A stretch of DNA of 37,418 nt from Defluviicoccus sp. (GTDB lineage Bacteria; Pseudomonadota; Alphaproteobacteria; MPNO01): the NCBI GenBank assembly GCA_028820505.1, contig JAPPIT010000132.1, forward strand, positions 22,145 to 59,562, in the 5' to 3' direction. The notes under the pieces are model-generated. The model did not search any database. It was not told the origin of the DNA and saw nothing but the letters and a program-made list of their open reading frames with translations. The translations under genes and the position numbers were made by a program. This document shows positions 23,972 to 32,758 of this stretch, in pieces (within the stretch, counting starts at the first letter, position 1; every line of letters starts with the position of its first letter).

Positions 23972-24004
23972 ATGTATGCCGATCACACCCCGCTGCGCAC
24001 CTAG
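23972..24004 (+). pseudogene. Ten-codon reading frame, possible stump of the next operon gene
   Basis: An ATG at 23972, ten bases after the ligase stop and preceded by GAGGAC, opens MYADHTPLRT and then stops at TAG (24002-24004). Operon spacing suggests a catabolic gene began here and was cut by the incoming island, whose recombinase gene begins at 24116. The rest of such a gene is not found to the right within the window. It could also be a chance start. Confidence 0.3.
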
Positions 24005-24115: not shown

Positions 24116-25240
24116 GTGTCGAGAACCAGCCTCACCGACGCCCGAATCGGGGCGCTCGTTCCGCGCAAGACCGCATACGACCTCCGCGACGGCAAGCTCA
24201 GGGGCTTCGGCGTCCGGGTGACGCCCGCGGGCGGGAAGCGCTTCTTCGTCCATTGCCAGCACGGGGGCGAGCGCGTCTGGAAGATCGTCGGCGACTTCGG
24301 CGAGATCGGCGTTGCGGAAGCGCGGTTGCGTGCCGAGGCGATGCTGGCGGCGATCAGGCGGGGCGAGCCCGCGCCGGCCTTGCCCGAGGAGACGCTGTTC
24401 GAGGCTGTCGCCGAGACCGTGTTCCGGCAGCACGAACGAGTCTGGAAGCCGGGCACGCTCCGTGTCAACCGGGGTTACCTGGAGAGACAAATCCTGCCCC
24501 GGTTCGCCGGGCGGCCCGTTGCCGAGATCGACCGGCGCGAGGTGCAGAACTGGTTCGCCTCGCTCACCGCGACCCCGGCCGCCGCCGACCGGTCCATGCC
24601 CATCCTTTCCGTCATCATGCGCGGCGCCGAGGCGATGGGTCTCCGGCCCGAGGGGTCCAACCCGTGTCGGGGGATCAGGCGAAACCGCCGAAAGGGGCGA
24701 GAGCGCTTCCTGTCGGACGACGAGGTCCGCGGTCTGTCCTCGGTGCTGTCGGCGCACGCCGAAGACTGTCCCGATCAGGTTGCGGCGATCCGCCTTCTTC
24801 TCCTCACCGGATGCCGCAAGAGCGAGCTCGTGACGCTGCGCTGGTCCGATTACCGCGAGGGGCACCTGTTCCTCCGTGACAGCAAAACTGGCCCTCGCAC
24901 CGTTTGGCTGTCGCAGCCCGCGCGGGCCATCCTCGATCGCATGGAGCGGACCGGCGCATGGGTGTTTCCCTCGCCCCACGCCGCACGGCCGCGCAGCACC
25001 GCCTGGCTGGACGACTTCTGGTGGCGCATCCGGGAGGAAGCCGGTCTCGACGACGTGCGTCTCCACGATCTCCGGCATACCCATGCCAGCATCGCCCTGA
25101 GGCGGGGCGAGACCATGCTCGCCATCGGCAGGCTGCTCGGCCACGCCGATCCCGAGACCACCCTCAAATATACCCATGCGGCCGACGCGACGGTCATGCA
25201 GGCCGCCGAGACGGTCGGCGCCGTGTTGGGGGCCGAATGA
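24116..25240 (+). CDS. Tyrosine recombinase/integrase 1
   Basis: A 374-aa phage-type integrase. The N-terminus (LTDARIGALVPRKTAYDLRDG, in part) resembles the arm-binding DUF4102 domain, then comes a core-binding domain at about residues 93-180 and the catalytic domain. Catalytic residues are R234 (TGCRKSEL), K257 (DSKTGP), H317 and R320 (HDLRHTHAS), H343 (LGHADPETTL) and Y352. The set is complete, so it should be active. The start is a GTG at 24116 with GGGAG upstream. Its stop overlaps the start of a second integrase (ATGA). Confidence 0.93.
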   Translation: MSRTSLTDARIGALVPRKTAYDLRDGKLRGFGVRVTPAGGKRFFVHCQHGGERVWKIVGDFGEIGVAEARLRAEAMLAAIRRGEPAPALPEETLFEAVAETVFRQHERVWKPGTLRVNRGYLERQILPRFAGRPVAEIDRREVQNWFASLTATPAAADRSMPILSVIMRGAEAMGLRPEGSNPCRGIRRNRRKGRERFLSDDEVRGLSSVLSAHAEDCPDQVAAIRLLLLTGCRKSELVTLRWSDYREGHLFLRDSKTGPRTVWLSQPARAILDRMERTGAWVFPSPHAARPRSTAWLDDFWWRIREEAGLDDVRLHDLRHTHASIALRRGETMLAIGRLLGHADPETTLKYTHAADATVMQAAETVGAVLGAE

Positions 25241-26382
25241 TGCCGGGAAGGGAGCGCAGGAAGCTGACCGATGCCGCCATTGGCCGCCTTCGCCCCCGGG
25301 CGCGGGAATATACAGTGTGGGACAGGAGTGTGCCCGGCCTCGGGGTCCGGGTGCGGCCGACCGGCGGGAAGAGCTGGGTCATGCTGGAGGAAACCGGCGG
25401 CCGCTCGAAGCGCGTCTCGCTCGGGCCGGTCTCGGTGAAGGGCATCGAGGAGGTCCGCCGGGAGTGCCTTGCCAGACGCGTCAGCCCGATGGCAGAGCCC
25501 GTCGCGCCGGCCCGCCCGGTGCCATCGTTCCGCGAGTTCGTCGAGGGCGAATGGAAGGCGGCGCATTTCGCCCGCTACAAGCCGTCGACACGGTATATCG
25601 CCACCCGGCTCCTCGAAACCAGGTTCCTGCCCGCCTTCGGCGAGAAGCCGCTCGACCGCATTGCCCCGGCCGAGATCAGGCGCTGGTTCGATGCCTTCAG
25701 CCGCACCGCGCCGGGCAACGCCAACCGGGCTCTCGACGTCCTGCGCCAGATGATGAACTTCGCCGTCGCCAGGGGCCACATCGAGACCAACCCGACGCGG
25801 GGGATCGAGCGGAACCGCCGGCCGCGAATGACGCGTTTCCTGTCGCGCGAGGAGATTGCCCGGTTGCACGGCGTGCTCGACGCCGAGGACGGGAAGGGCA
25901 ACCGGGAGCATGCCGACATCGTCCGCCTCCTGCTGCTGACCGGGTGCCGCAAGAACGAGATCCTCCGGCTGCGCTGGTCCGAGGTCCGGGACGACATGTT
26001 GGAGCTCGTCGACAGCAAAACCGGACCGAGAAAGGTTCCCCTCAACATCCATGCGCGGCGCATCCTCGCGCGCCAGCCGCGCGGCGAAGGCGCGTTCGTG
26101 TTTCCATCGCCTCGCGATCCCGACCGTCCGCGCAACGACAATCTCGTCTTCTGGTTCCGGATCCGAAAGGAGGCCGGCATCGAGGATGTGCGGCTTCACG
26201 ACCTCCGCCATACGCATGCGAGCCACGCGGCGATGAGCGGAGTTCCCATCCCCGTCGTCTCCCGCCTGCTCGGCCATTCCAGCGTCCGCATGACGCTCAG
26301 GTACGCTCATCTCGGGGACCGCGAGATCGAGCAGGCCGCCGAGCGCGTCGGGCAAGCGATCGGATCTCTTCTAGAGCTATAA
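25237..26382 (+). CDS. Tyrosine recombinase/integrase 2
   Basis: A 381-aa integrase of the same architecture as its neighbour. It has an N-terminal arm-type segment (RRKLTDAAIGRLRPRA), a core-binding domain, and catalytic R238, K261, H321, R324, H347 and nucleophile Y356. It is clearly related to integrase 1 (shared LLLLTGCRK, DSKTGPR, VRLHDLRHTHAS) but diverged over most of its length. The ATG at 25237 overlaps the stop of integrase 1 by four bases, so the pair is made in step. Both are complete, which is uncommon in a simple island. Confidence 0.93.
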   Translation: MMPGRERRKLTDAAIGRLRPRAREYTVWDRSVPGLGVRVRPTGGKSWVMLEETGGRSKRVSLGPVSVKGIEEVRRECLARRVSPMAEPVAPARPVPSFREFVEGEWKAAHFARYKPSTRYIATRLLETRFLPAFGEKPLDRIAPAEIRRWFDAFSRTAPGNANRALDVLRQMMNFAVARGHIETNPTRGIERNRRPRMTRFLSREEIARLHGVLDAEDGKGNREHADIVRLLLLTGCRKNEILRLRWSEVRDDMLELVDSKTGPRKVPLNIHARRILARQPRGEGAFVFPSPRDPDRPRNDNLVFWFRIRKEAGIEDVRLHDLRHTHASHAAMSGVPIPVVSRLLGHSSVRMTLRYAHLGDREIEQAAERVGQAIGSLLEL

Positions 26383-26603: not shown

Positions 26604-27131
26604 ATGCACTACAAGATATACGGTCCGTACGAAATTCCGAGACTGGAAGGAGAGTTCAAAAGGCGGATAGACAAGGAAGATGTGGCTGCCTTTTGGGATA
26701 TTGTCGATGGTAGCTTGTATGATGGGTGTGGATGTTATGTATTTTGCATCGCCACACAGCGCAGGGAAAAACCTTGGTATGTCGGCAAGGCGCAGAAACA
26801 ATCTTTCGGCCGAGAGTGTTTCACACCGCACAAAATCGTAATGTATCACGAAGCTTTGGAAAAGTCCAATGGCACGCCTCTGATGTATTTTCTGGCAAGG
26901 TTTACGAAGACCGGACACATTTCCAGACCTACCAGGTCCGCGGCTGGACATGCGGATATCGATTTTGTCGAACGAATGTTTATCGAGAAAGGGTTTCATG
27001 TCAACCGGCACATTCGTAACAAAAGGGACACGAAGAATCCGGAAAACCTGATTGTCGAAGGCTTTTATAATTCTAGAGATCGTCGACGCAATCCGGTAAA
27101 GAGGCTTTACGAGTTGTTCGGTGGGGAGTAA
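26604..27131 (+). CDS. GIY-YIG-like nuclease-domain protein
   Basis: A 175-aa protein from the AT-richer cargo. A GIY-YIG-like pattern is visible: YVF at 45-47 in GCYVF, then WYVGKA at 58-63, an Arg at 70 and a Glu at 123 (FVERMFIEKG), as in the family order. GIY-YIG enzymes cut one DNA strand by a Tyr/Arg/Glu mechanism. The segment around the Arg is divergent, so activity is uncertain. The ATG has GAGGAG 11 bases upstream. No associated methylase or homing-endonuclease context is present beside it. Confidence 0.6.
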   Translation: MHYKIYGPYEIPRLEGEFKRRIDKEDVAAFWDIVDGSLYDGCGCYVFCIATQRREKPWYVGKAQKQSFGRECFTPHKIVMYHEALEKSNGTPLMYFLARFTKTGHISRPTRSAAGHADIDFVERMFIEKGFHVNRHIRNKRDTKNPENLIVEGFYNSRDRRRNPVKRLYELFGGE

Positions 27132-27881: not shown

Positions 27882-28051
27882 ATCATTTTATACATAACCG
27901 CACTTTTATTTTTGGATATCTCGCCTTCATTCGCCTTTGAACGCACCGCGGAACGGGAGACTGCCCCCCATGCCGCCCTTGGTCTGCGGCGACGACTGCT
28001 GGCCACGGGCGAGCTGTGCTCGGCGCGCCGGGAAACGAGCGGCGCGGCCTG

Positions 28052-30886
28052 ATGCGCCTGTCGTGGAACGAGGTTCGCGCCCGCGCCGCTGCCTTCGCCG
28101 AAGACTGGAAGGACGCGGCCTACGAGAAGGGCGAGACGCAGAGCTTCTACAACGCCTTCTTCGACGTGTTCGGAGTGCGGCGGCGGAATGTCGCCCGCTA
28201 CGAGGCGCATGTCGCCAAGCTCGACAACCGCTCGGGCTTCATCGACCTGTTCTGGCCGGGCGTGCTGCTCGTCGAACAGAAGAGCGCCGGGCGCGATCTC
28301 CGCAAGGCGTACGAACAGGCCGGGGAGTATTTCGACGCGCTGCCGGAACGCGACCGCCCGCGCTTCATCCTTGTAAGCGACTTCCAGACCTTCGAGCTTC
28401 ACGATCTGGACGAGCGCGAGACCGTCGCCTTCCCCCTCGCGGACCTGCCCGCGCATGTCGAGGCGTTCGGGTTCATCCTCGGCGTGCAGCGCCGAACATT
28501 TCGCGATCAGGACCCCGCCAACATCGAGGCCGCCGAGCTGGTGGGGCGGCTGCACGACGCGCTCGCGAACGCAGGGCACGAGCGGCACGATCTGGAGCGT
28601 TTTCTCGTCCGGGTCGTGTTCTGCATGTTCGCCGACGATACCGGCGTGTTCGAGCCGCGCGACATCTTCCTCGATTTCATCGAGGCGCGCACTAGCGAGG
28701 ACGGAGCCGATCTCGGGCCGTGGCTCGCGCAACTGTTCGAGGTCCTCGATACGCCGGAGGGCGAGCGCCCCGCAACGCTCGACGAGGACCTCGCCCGGTT
28801 CCCCTACGTCAACGGCGATCTGTTCAGGGGGCACCTGAGGACCTTCTCGTTCGACGCCGCGATGCGCGTTGCGCTTCTCGACGCTTGCCGCTTCGACTGG
28901 TCGAACATCTCGCCCGCGATCTTCGGCGCGCTGTTCCAGTCGGTGATGGATCCCGTGGAGCGCCGCGCCCAGGGGGCGCACTACACGACCGAGAAGAACA
29001 TCCTCAAGGTGATCGAGCCGTTGTTCATGGACGACCTCCGCGCCGAGTTCGAGCGATTGAGGGCTCGCCGGGACAGCCGGCGTCTGGCCGAACTTCGACG
29101 GTTTCAGGCGAAGCTCGGCAGCATGACCTTCTTCGACCCGGCCTGTGGCTGCGGCAACTTTCTGATCGTCGCCTACCGGGAGCTTCGGGCGCTCGAAATA
29201 GAAGTGTTGAAGGAAGTGCACTCGGAGTTTCTCGTTCGCCTGGAGCGCATGACGGGCGGCTCCGACCTTCCATCGGACCAGCTGTCCTGCATCGATGTGG
29301 ACCAGTTCTACGGGATCGAGCTTGGCGAGTTCCCGGCCCGGATCGCAGAAACCGCGCTGTGGATGATGGACCACATCATGAACAACCGGCTGAGCCTTGA
29401 GTTCGGCCAGACCTTCGTTCGCATCCCGCTCGAGAAGTCGCCGCACATCGTCCACGGCGACGCGCTGGAAACGGATTGGACCGAACTGCTGCCGTCGGGG
29501 AATTGCTCTTTCGTCTTCGGCAATCCGCCCTTCGTGGGCGCGAAGTACCAGACGGTGGACCAGCGCGCGCAGGTACGCGGGATCGCCGCGCTCGGTAAGG
29601 GCGGCGGGACGCTCGACTACGTCGCCGCGTGGTTCATCAAGGCGGGGGAGTATGTGAAGGCCGGCGATGCGCGGATCGGCTTCGTCGCGACCAACTCGAT
29701 CACGCAGGGCGAGCAGGTCGCACAGCTATGGCCGGTCCTGTTCGGGCGCTGCAAGCTGGAGATTGCCTTCGCGCACCGGACCTTCGCATGGGGATCGGAC
29801 GCGCGCGGCAAGGCGCATGTGCATGTCGTCATTCTCGGCCTCGATCGGCGCAAGGCCGCGCGGGCGGAGAAGCGGCTGTTCGGCTATCCCGACTTCAACG
29901 GCGATCCGGAGGAAAGCCGACACGCGGCACTGTCGCCGTACCTGTTCGATGCGGGCGGTTTGTCCGACCCGCGTCTGGTGGTGCGGGAACAAAGCGCACC
30001 GATTAATGGAATGAGGAGGCTCATCATTGGGTCCAAGCCCATCGACGGCGGCAACTACATCTTCGACCCAGCGGAACGCGACGCGTTTCTGGATGCGGAG
30101 CCGGAAGCCGCACCCTGGCTCCGACCGTTCATCGGCGCGCGCGAATACCTGCAAGGGGGTGAGCGTTGGATCCTGGCGCTGCACGATACTCCCCCCGAAG
30201 TGCTGGCGCGGCTGCCCCATGTGCGGGAGCGAGTCGTCGCCGTCCGGGCCTACCGCGAGGCGAGCAAGAGCGCGCCGACACGGAAGCTAGCGGCGACACC
30301 GACCCTCTACCACGTCAACGTCATCCCCACCGCGCCGTTTCTGGTGATTCCCGAAGTCAGTTCGGAGCGCCGCGAATACGCGCCCATCGGCTGGCTGGAG
30401 CCGCCAACGATTCCGAGCAACCTTGTGCGGCTACTGGAGAACGCCACGCTGGCGGAATTCGCCCTGCTGACCTCGGCGATGCACATGGCGTGGCTGCGCC
30501 ATATCGGCGGACGGCTCAAGAGCGACTACCGCTACTCCATCGGCCTCGTCTACAACACCTTCCCGCTGCCGCCCACGGGCTCGGATCTGTCGAGACTGGA
30601 ACCGCTGGCTCAGGCCGTCCTCGACGCCCGCGCCGCTCATCGGGAAGCGACGCTCGCCGATCTCTACGATCCCGACCTGATGCCGCCGAACCTGCGGCGG
30701 GCACATCGGGCGCTCGATCGCGCGGTGGACCGACTCTACAGGCGCAGCGGATTCGCGTCGGAGCGCGAGCGCGTCGAGCATCTGTTCATGCTGTATGAGA
30801 AGATGCAAACTCCGCTTGAACTCGCGGCGCGGGGCAAGTCGAAGCGACGGCGGAGCGCTTCGGCCTCGCGGCGCGATACTCGATGA
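28052..30886 (+). CDS. MmeI-family single-chain restriction-modification enzyme (Type IIL)
   Basis: A 944-aa protein that recognises, methylates and cuts DNA in one chain. It resembles MmeI over its length. The PD-(D/E)XK nuclease site is D65-x9-E75-x-K77 (GFIDLFWPGVLLVEQK), the same spacing as in MmeI. Motif I of the N6-adenine methylase is FDPACGCGNF (D362) and motif IV is NPPF (N491). The C-terminal recognition part has GGRLKSDYRYS (K823, D825). The start RLSWNEVRARA matches MmeI's SWNEIRRKA, so the ATG at 28052 is preferred over the GTG at 28016. It ends in ATGA overlap with the next gene. Confidence 0.92.
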   Translation: MRLSWNEVRARAAAFAEDWKDAAYEKGETQSFYNAFFDVFGVRRRNVARYEAHVAKLDNRSGFIDLFWPGVLLVEQKSAGRDLRKAYEQAGEYFDALPERDRPRFILVSDFQTFELHDLDERETVAFPLADLPAHVEAFGFILGVQRRTFRDQDPANIEAAELVGRLHDALANAGHERHDLERFLVRVVFCMFADDTGVFEPRDIFLDFIEARTSEDGADLGPWLAQLFEVLDTPEGERPATLDEDLARFPYVNGDLFRGHLRTFSFDAAMRVALLDACRFDWSNISPAIFGALFQSVMDPVERRAQGAHYTTEKNILKVIEPLFMDDLRAEFERLRARRDSRRLAELRRFQAKLGSMTFFDPACGCGNFLIVAYRELRALEIEVLKEVHSEFLVRLERMTGGSDLPSDQLSCIDVDQFYGIELGEFPARIAETALWMMDHIMNNRLSLEFGQTFVRIPLEKSPHIVHGDALETDWTELLPSGNCSFVFGNPPFVGAKYQTVDQRAQVRGIAALGKGGGTLDYVAAWFIKAGEYVKAGDARIGFVATNSITQGEQVAQLWPVLFGRCKLEIAFAHRTFAWGSDARGKAHVHVVILGLDRRKAARAEKRLFGYPDFNGDPEESRHAALSPYLFDAGGLSDPRLVVREQSAPINGMRRLIIGSKPIDGGNYIFDPAERDAFLDAEPEAAPWLRPFIGAREYLQGGERWILALHDTPPEVLARLPHVRERVVAVRAYREASKSAPTRKLAATPTLYHVNVIPTAPFLVIPEVSSERREYAPIGWLEPPTIPSNLVRLLENATLAEFALLTSAMHMAWLRHIGGRLKSDYRYSIGLVYNTFPLPPTGSDLSRLEPLAQAVLDARAAHREATLADLYDPDLMPPNLRRAHRALDRAVDRLYRRSGFASERERVEHLFMLYEKMQTPLELAARGKSKRRRSASASRRDTR

Positions 30887-31731
30887 AGTCGGCGGACAAG
30901 GGTGTGGGGACTGATCTTCATATGGCCAAGCGAAAGGAAAACGAAGACGAACTTTGTGCACAGGACTGGTTGCAGCAGCAAGGTTACAGTGACATTCGAC
31001 GGCCTTGCAACGATCCGCCTGACTTCGTCGTCGATGGCTGCGCAGTTGAAGTGACCCGGCTGAATCAAAGAATAATCGTCGGGAACGATAAGCAGTCAAT
31101 AGGGGAAGAAGAAGCACGGAAACCGCTCGAAGACTACATAAGGAAAATCATCGATCAGCTTAGACCGCCCGGAAACGACGGATGTAGTTGGGTAATTGAC
31201 TGCGAGTATGATTTTTCTAAACCGCTGCCAGTCCGCAAGAACGTCACTCGTCAGATTTCGGAGGCGTTGACACCACTATTGCGGTTTTACGATGAGTCAA
31301 CCGTTTCCGGTATTCACTCCAAGTATTTCGATTACGACAAGCATGCCGGAGAGCCCCTACCTTTGGGATTTCCGCATCTCTGTCTGGATTGCGGTATCTG
31401 TCTCGATCTCGCAGAGTTCAACTATAAGCCCGCGAAGTTCATCTTGCAGAACGTCTCGGACGGCTATGGAATAGGCTTGCCCGAGGAATTGATTGTAAGT
31501 ATCCGGAACAGAATTCTCGATAAATCGAGGAACGTTCGCAAACAAGGTAAGGTTGGAAAGTACAAGAGCTGGTGGTTGATCTTGGTAGATCATGTTTGCC
31601 ATATGCCGATGACGTTTCTTTCAGAGGATAAATTGTCCTTTGTCCGGGAGCAGCGATTTGACTTCTGGTCAAGGGTTATAATTGTCAGCTTCCAGAATCC
31701 AAGCTGGCACTATGAATTACCGATTCGGTAG
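30883..31731 (+). CDS. Companion protein with a PD-(D/E)XK-like motif
   Basis: A 282-aa protein encoded immediately after the MmeI-family enzyme and overlapping it by four bases (ATGA, 30883-30886). Residues 46-60 read PDFVVDGCAVEVTRL, a PD-(D/E)XK-like pattern (D47, E56) with Thr58 in place of the usual lysine. The N-terminal part (ELCAQDWLQQQGYSDI) looks like a helix-strand entry to such a nuclease fold. The rest has no motif I know. An alternative start is the ATG at 30922. It could be a restriction helper, a backup nuclease or an unlinked passenger. Confidence 0.6.
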   Translation: MKSADKGVGTDLHMAKRKENEDELCAQDWLQQQGYSDIRRPCNDPPDFVVDGCAVEVTRLNQRIIVGNDKQSIGEEEARKPLEDYIRKIIDQLRPPGNDGCSWVIDCEYDFSKPLPVRKNVTRQISEALTPLLRFYDESTVSGIHSKYFDYDKHAGEPLPLGFPHLCLDCGICLDLAEFNYKPAKFILQNVSDGYGIGLPEELIVSIRNRILDKSRNVRKQGKVGKYKSWWLILVDHVCHMPMTFLSEDKLSFVREQRFDFWSRVIIVSFQNPSWHYELPIR

Positions 31732-31781
31732 TGCAAGTTTTTTCAAGATCAGAGCGAATGTGGGTCCTGAGTGTACTCCAC

Positions 31782-32153
31782 TTAGGGCTGGCCGACAGCC
31801 TGCTTTCCAAGTTCAACCAAACACGCCTTTAGCGCATCGAAAGCGAGGCCGCCCGTTGCTTCAAGGCACTTCTCCTTTGCCTTCTTCCAAATGGATTCTT
31901 TTCGGGCAGCATCCAGAAAATCATGACCTTCCCATGTCATTCTCTCGATCCTGTATGTCAGAATCCTGTGGGCTGGTCCGTCACCGCTTGGAACGGCTTT
32001 CCCTTCGATCAGCCCATGTTCGATCATGAGTTCTACATGCAGCCCGGTTTGCTCCTCTCCGTTGCCGGGAGTATCGAGCTTGATTGCCTTTCCGGGCTCT
32101 GTCGCTTCGATCTGCAAGAGGATTTCACGGACAAGGTCCATATTTCGTTTCAT
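31782..32153 (-). CDS. DUF2513-family protein
   Basis: A 123-aa protein starting MKRNMDLVREILLQIE and containing ERMTWEGHDFLDAARKESIWKKAKEK (shown in part), the pattern of DUF2513 proteins of phages and islands. The fold is predicted to be a winged helix, but no function is known. The start is the ATG at 32153, preceded by AGAGG; a TTG six bases upstream is also in frame. Its 3' end faces that of the companion gene, 50 bp away. Confidence 0.75.
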   Translation of the reverse strand: MKRNMDLVREILLQIEATEPGKAIKLDTPGNGEEQTGLHVELMIEHGLIEGKAVPSGDGPAHRILTYRIERMTWEGHDFLDAARKESIWKKAKEKCLEATGGLAFDALKACLVELGKQAVGQP

Positions 32154-32281
32154 GCACAACCTCTATCGGCCTTTGGCCTTTTGATCCCGAACAACATGAC
32201 CGCGGCTAGCGCGGTAGGGCAACAACTTTGCGCTGATTCGGCCCAAGGTCAACGGTTTCCGGGACTGACAAGGGATCGCGG

Positions 32282-32758
32282 TCAAAGCCAGTCGTCCCGG
32301 TCCAGCCGAGGAGGCAGGTAGGACGATGTCCGCCCGCGTGGGAGGAGCATCGCCTCGGCGATGAGCGTCCCGACCTTCTCCGCCGCCTCGACCAAATGGC
32401 CGTCGGCAAGGTGGGCATAACCGGCGGTGGTCCGGTGCCGCTTGTGACCCAGCAGCCTGCCGACTTGCGGCAGGTTTTCGCCCGCCATGACGGCTTGGCT
32501 CGCTGCGGTATGGCGCAGGTCGTGCAAACGGAGCCTGCCGAGTCCGGCATCCGTGCAGACCGCGCGCCAGCAGCCGTCGAAGCTCCCCGATCCGGCCGCT
32601 GGCTTCCGGCGACCGGGCAGCGCGTCGATGACGGCACGCGCGGCCTCGCCGAGCGGCTCCGCGCGCGGGCCGGTTTTCGAGTCTTCGAGGTTCAACGCAT
32701 CCACGCCGATATTCCGCCAGCGCAGATTGAATACTTCGCTGCGGCGGCAGCCGGTCAT
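32282..32758 (-). pseudogene. Truncated tyrosine recombinase (catalytic half only)
   Basis: A 158-codon frame holding only the C-terminal catalytic part of an integrase: TGCRRSEVFNLRW (Arg), EDSKTGPR (Lys), LHDLRHTAAS (His-Arg), LGHKRHRTTAGYAH (His, Tyr). In the upstream frame, a stop follows at 32780-32782 and the arm-binding and core-binding domains are absent. It is oriented opposite to the intact pair at 24116-26382. It is likely the remnant of a second, older element that once integrated here. Confidence 0.85.

Follow-up and report, generated by a model that had tools for sequence, protein, structure and literature searches.

A gene for an MmeI-family (Type IIL) restriction-modification enzyme and an overlapping gene for a 282-aa protein of an unnamed family (hereafter the companion) were found in a window of 37 kb (C215:22145-59562), which is the whole stretch of DNA analysed and part of a 5.5-Mb genome assembly. 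The preferred reading, with a probability of roughly one half (0.52), is that the two genes form an anti-phage cassette borne by a tandem-recombinase element as its cargo, with the companion as an autonomous auxiliary effector and not an MmeI subunit. Under this mechanism, MmeI would be self-sufficient, methylating one strand of a predicted NCCGAG-like site and cutting unmodified DNA downstream of the site. The companion, from an undescribed family, would be read from the MmeI transcript as a separate effector with a PD-(D/E)XK fold, and would provide an auxiliary or second line of defence as a nuclease rather than serve as a subunit of MmeI. The sequences show both genes, their purifying selection, the transfer of the cassette with exchange of its recognition part, and companions that occur away from MmeI and among defence genes; we infer nuclease activity of the companion, co-transcription of the two genes, phage protection, and this division of labour.

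MmeI and other Type IIL enzymes cleave about two turns away from their site and methylate one strand. The MmeI gene of the window is full-length (28052..30886, plus strand) and, starting with the ATG at 28052, encodes 944 aa. An N-terminal PD-x9-EQK nuclease, a helical spacer, a gamma-class N6-adenine methyltransferase, a TRD, and a C-terminal domain follow each other in one chain, and five Pfam models (MmeI_N, _hel, _Mtase, _TRD, and _C) exceeded the gathering cut-off. The PADLOC REase_MTase_IIG match was 1157.7 bits, and the protein aligned end to end with MmeI (PDB 5hr4) over 922 aa (E 4e-263). By alignment, the nuclease motif is intact (D65...E75-Q-K77) and corresponds to the catalytic motif D70...E80-M-K82 of MmeI (PMC4833311); the methyltransferase motifs DPACGCGNF (DPAC.GNF invariant) and NPPF are also intact. 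The TRD region lies at 29750..30660 (plus strand; residues ~567-870, TRD core 640-841). At the specificity positions known from the MmeI structure, the window enzyme has K645, E751/N773, L774/R810, and K806/D808 (MmeI numbering), from which an NCCGAG-like recognition site is predicted.

The companion gene (30883..31731, plus strand) was identified from the ORF, its homologues, and structure models. Its ATG overlaps the TGA of the MmeI gene by 4 bp (ATGA, 30883..30886, plus strand). An earlier note on this DNA had described an MmeI gene and, overlapping it by four bases, a 282-aa protein with PD-x8-E-V-T; both genes, the overlap, and the motif (PPDFVVDGCAVEVT) were confirmed. The only close relative of the companion is in a Rhodospirillaceae MAG (L006), where an MmeI gene directly precedes it and the 4-bp overlap is kept, as GTGA. 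A chance ORF was excluded because dN/dS between the window and L006 is 0.14, indicating purifying selection; the two proteins are 90% identical over 282 aa, and the differences at codon positions 1, 2, and 3 (17/14/50) fall mostly on position 3. There is also a conserved in-frame Met14 (30922), the first 13 residues being the least conserved of the protein, and translation from Met14 could leave the two genes 35 bp apart. Sequence and profile searches with the companion against Pfam, NCBIfam, PADLOC, PHROGs, and PDB returned nothing usable.

Residue conservation was scored in an alignment of 11 companions, namely those of the window, L006, a Poribacteria MAG, a Caldilineaceae, an alphaproteobacterium, a gammaproteobacterium, a Desulfurellaceae, a congener, two plasmids, and a phage contig. 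E23, P46-D47-F48, E56-V57, I211, K214, and W230-W231-L232 are invariant in 11/11, and the PD and (D/E) acids of the superfamily (P46-D47 and E56) are present throughout. The PD-(D/E)XK lysine, two residues after E56, is absent in all 11 sequences; the residue is T in the window (T58), L006, L007, L010, L011, and L198, and R in L008, L009, L185, L196, and L197. Since T or R takes the place of the motif lysine, catalysis by the companion is not assured, and the same 11/11 absence of the K of the ExK motif would suit a protein that keeps the PD-(D/E)XK fold but has lost catalysis and serves in binding or regulation. That reading is considered extremely improbable, however, as the invariant E23, D47, E56, K214, and W230-W231 suggest an active site whose lysine has shifted position.

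Two AlphaFold runs on the companion gave models with pLDDT 77-78; the second run, from whose input two rows from plasmid records were omitted, produced five models of similar confidence. With the second model, VIA-align placed the CdiA-CT nuclease 4g6v at the top (Z 9.4, 117 aligned, 3.3 A), with 1y0k at Z 8.6 and SfsA at Z 7.0, values of Z 7-9 being middling; these three we take to be members of the PD-(D/E)XK superfamily. Nt.BspD6I, Vsr, Hjc, and EcoRV were at Z 3.6-4.4, and the best rows (Z 9.4 to 3.6) are mostly PD-(D/E)XK-fold nucleases. Foldseek with the companion model against PDB and viral models gave no significant match. The modelled companion is PD-(D/E)XK-like, its predicted fold resembling PD-(D/E)XK nucleases most, and it may act as a nuclease through a metal-dependent phosphodiesterase activity.

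The block common to the window and L006 spans 28036..31757 (plus strand) by DNA comparison and is 86% and 83% identical at its two ends. The flanks directly outside it are unrelated, and recombinase remnants match further out; in the window, this is what remains of a further tyrosine recombinase, located downstream of the cassette (32282..32758, minus strand) and 75% identical in DNA to a similarly placed stretch in L006. The genomes themselves are not closely related. A 10-kb part of the upstream region of the window matches the L006 genome in short patches only (65-93% identity, mostly 65-78%), whereas other DNA adjoining the L006 cassette, partly repeated, matches the window genome at 87-90%.

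MmeI residues 1-330 (dS 0.365) and the companion (dS 0.339) have diverged equally between the two cassettes, at ~0.35, compared with >1.1 for MmeI residues 331-870, and the TRD region at 29750..30660 has been replaced (25-62% identity). Because dS is equal at the two ends and exceeds 1.1 between them, the ends have a common history, the middle having been replaced. The simplest reading of these sequences is one transferred unit, the methyltransferase/recognition part of which would have been exchanged later. The L006 enzyme has Q645 and Q774 at its recognition positions (MmeI numbering); the companion has thus stayed while the target changed. The same two-gene segment in different flanks, with equal divergence at its ends, shows a mobile cassette that was co-inherited as a discrete unit. 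The pair recurs once beyond the window, which gives two genomes in all.

These comparisons bear on whether the restriction enzyme needs the companion as a working part, either an extra nuclease or a specificity partner for this MmeI subfamily. The 4-bp overlap kept in both cassettes agrees with such a role, and so does the companion having diverged as much as the N-terminal nuclease part of MmeI. On the other hand, MmeI enzymes need no separate methyltransferase to act (PMC4081073), the window MmeI has all of its own domains intact, its homologues of 62-79% identity have no companion, and the companion occurs without MmeI in several phyla, all of which makes a working part very improbable. A specificity subunit in particular was rejected, this MmeI having a complete TRD that was exchanged independently of the companion. 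In the L006 cassette, the TRD was replaced while the companion did not change correspondingly. The association of MmeI and companion is real at the sequence level; obligate coupling is not.

The host mobile element has its left junction at 23995, where a small chromosomal gene is interrupted; in three congeners the chromosome runs through this gene intact. A tandem pair of tyrosine recombinases begins at the interrupted gene (24116..25240 and 25237..26382, both on the plus strand), the first being multi-copy in the genus and the pair having many copies across it. One congener (G746) has the recombinase pair at the identical site without the MmeI-companion cassette, and another (G748) has an MmeI of 62% identity without the companion, the next gene being convergent. 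The right end of the element was not found within the window, with which the contig also ends. Two further genes lie beside the cassette. Between the recombinases and MmeI, 26604-27131 encodes a 175-aa protein with a GIY-YIG-like stretch (GCYVF...WYVGKA) recognised by eye and with no family match. Right behind the cassette, a DUF2513 protein is encoded on the opposite strand (31782-32159), and on a Paracoccus plasmid (L029), too, a DUF2513 gene follows MmeI at a distance of 341 bp.

Elsewhere, members of several phyla have the companion without MmeI, and MmeI adjoins it at 2 of ~11 companion loci, those of the window and L006; at the ~10 loci other than the window, MmeI was seen beside it in L006 only. 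In the Poribacteria MAG (L007), a homologue of 51-54% identity directly follows a PDC-S34 protein (2.5e-105) and adjoins a Drt8 reverse transcriptase (5.7e-155); another tandem recombinase pair lies upstream of it. The homologue in L008 adjoins a CBASS TIR-SAVED effector and an E1-E2 protein, and that in L011 is followed by a ThsB-type TIR (Thoeris-like) and by TIR and SLOG genes. Defence-gene neighbours thus recur in unrelated genomes (L007, L008, and L011, with MmeI in the window and L006), and the family has a defence-gene habit independent of MmeI. L009 and the plasmid loci have no obvious defence neighbours, and L010 is a short contig. Direct tblastn of the companion against phages and plasmids gave no match; the remote relatives were reached through L009 (Polaromonas and Vibrio plasmids) and through a profile (L184 and L185). 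On the Polaromonas plasmid (L196, 7004-8442), the homologue overlaps a gene for a 232-aa hypothetical protein by 4 bp, without MmeI. The homologues of L184 and L185 lie within phage contigs among structural genes and are possibly phage-carried defence genes. The companion is very probably a defence effector, but as a family it is not a partner of MmeI.

The genes behind other MmeI genes were surveyed in 78 non-redundant full-length homologues from genomes, plasmids, and viral contigs, 75 of which had readable downstream sequence. An ORF was counted as tight if it was on the same strand, encoded >=100 aa, and lay within -25 to +30 bp of MmeI. Tight ORFs were present downstream in 18/75 cases and upstream in 13/77 (p 0.32), so a general excess of tight genes behind MmeI was rejected as not significant, and it is therefore the kind of gene, not the tightness, that is suggestive. 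With effector-like genes only, sorted by the author's own judgement, the counts were 9/72 downstream and 2/74 upstream (p 0.03), a comparison that rests on this sorting and is further limited by the 19-bp gap of L149. The tight ORFs of L033, L057, L083, L108, L151, and L156 were left out of this count, nothing supporting effector status, and L162 and L164 were set aside as another system, in which an MmeI-like protein without the nuclease motif is followed by a helicase or PLD-like gene. Most of the 75 testable MmeI genes have no tight downstream partner, and a minority have effector-like genes.

The effector-like genes behind other MmeI genes lie at -10 to +19 bp and belong to unrelated families: SduA at -4 (L081, E 1.4e-103), NERD with a gap of 19 bp (L149), TIR (L032), RES (L125), DUF3644/PDC-S19 (HEPN; L140), Abi_C (L167), and a PLD-like gene slightly under the Pfam cut-off (L027). 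A further tight downstream gene (L061) is GIY-YIG-like, recognised by eye only. No report of effectors appended to MmeI was found in the open literature searched. MmeI-like proteins lacking the N-terminal nuclease motif, which precede an SF2-type helicase and often a PLD-like protein, form a recurrent separate system (L067, L089-L092, L143, L162-L164, and L020, the last at G000:C198 in the window's own genome).

The survey could reflect ordinary stacking in defence islands. For the companion, this would mean that an independent defence gene was inserted behind MmeI in an accumulating island and shares its transcript with no functional link. The majority of companion homologues have no MmeI beside them and several adjoin other defence genes, most MmeI genes are partnerless with the few partners all different, and tight downstream ORFs are not significantly enriched. 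The exact two-gene unit, overlap included, has nevertheless moved between distant genomes with both genes under purifying selection, and passenger stacking is held to be a possible but rather unlikely explanation. A doubtful further proposal is that the operon position behind MmeI takes interchangeable effectors (PD-(D/E)XK-like, SduA, TIR, PLD, RES, NERD, HEPN, and Abi_C); this would be a modular two-layer defence, with restriction first and a suicidal or auxiliary effector fired upon restriction failure.

A back-up toxin of the abortive or addiction type was also considered. Here, the companion would be silent while MmeI is active or the genome methylated, and would attack host nucleic acid once MmeI is blocked or lost, the trigger being a phage that blocks MmeI or sites exposed by MmeI loss. 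Typical abortive effectors (TIR, RES, HEPN/DUF3644, and Abi_C) do occur behind other MmeI genes, the closest fold match of the companion includes a nuclease toxin domain, and similar back-up effectors were described for BREX (PMC12839542). The companion has no evident sensor domain or regulator, however, and its homologues without MmeI would be without control, making a back-up toxin very unlikely.

The earlier note had called the companion "nuclease-like" and had suggested that coupling implies a shared function, perhaps an expanded defence system. This is partly supported, by the predicted PD-(D/E)XK-like fold, by the defence neighbours in several unrelated genomes, and by the co-inheritance of the cassette; a joint two-protein machine as a consequence of the coupling is not supported, L006 alone of ~10 other places having MmeI. 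The conserved adjacency of the two families, which the note had named as a check, did not hold at the companion loci (2 of ~11 with MmeI) or at the 75 MmeI loci, which mostly have no partner. Outside the two cassettes, the companion is largely in unrelated contexts, which the note had named as refuting its idea, and a congeneric MmeI stands without it.

The companion adds an undescribed nuclease-fold family to the likely anti-phage effectors, in a genomic context that opens it to direct testing. It also raises the question of whether a second effector commonly stands behind one-gene restriction-modification systems, as argued for BREX; if true, many solitary MmeI annotations overlook half of a system. 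Domain order, catalytic motifs, and the positions of the recognition residues in the window MmeI are those of MmeI and Type IIL enzymes, from which the locus differs by its overlapping second gene, characterised MmeI enzymes being described as needing no separate methyltransferase (PMC4081073). Shedu (SduA, DUF4263) is a stand-alone PD-(D/E)XK defence nuclease, and the companion is similar as a single-gene nuclease-fold effector; SduA likewise sits at -4 behind a different MmeI (L081). The two have no sequence relation (no PADLOC match), and unlike Shedu, the companion lacks the ExK lysine and any obviously separate N-terminal domain. The PADLOC candidates PDC-S34 and PDC-S19 are, like the companion, stand-alone genes in defence loci but of different families, PDC-S34 directly preceding the companion homologue in L007 and PDC-S19 standing behind another MmeI. 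In BREX and Dnd, diverse nucleases and suicidal effectors are appended to a core based on DNA modification (PMC12839542, PMC10853773); the appended effector is alike in the window, whereas the core here is a single Type IIL enzyme.
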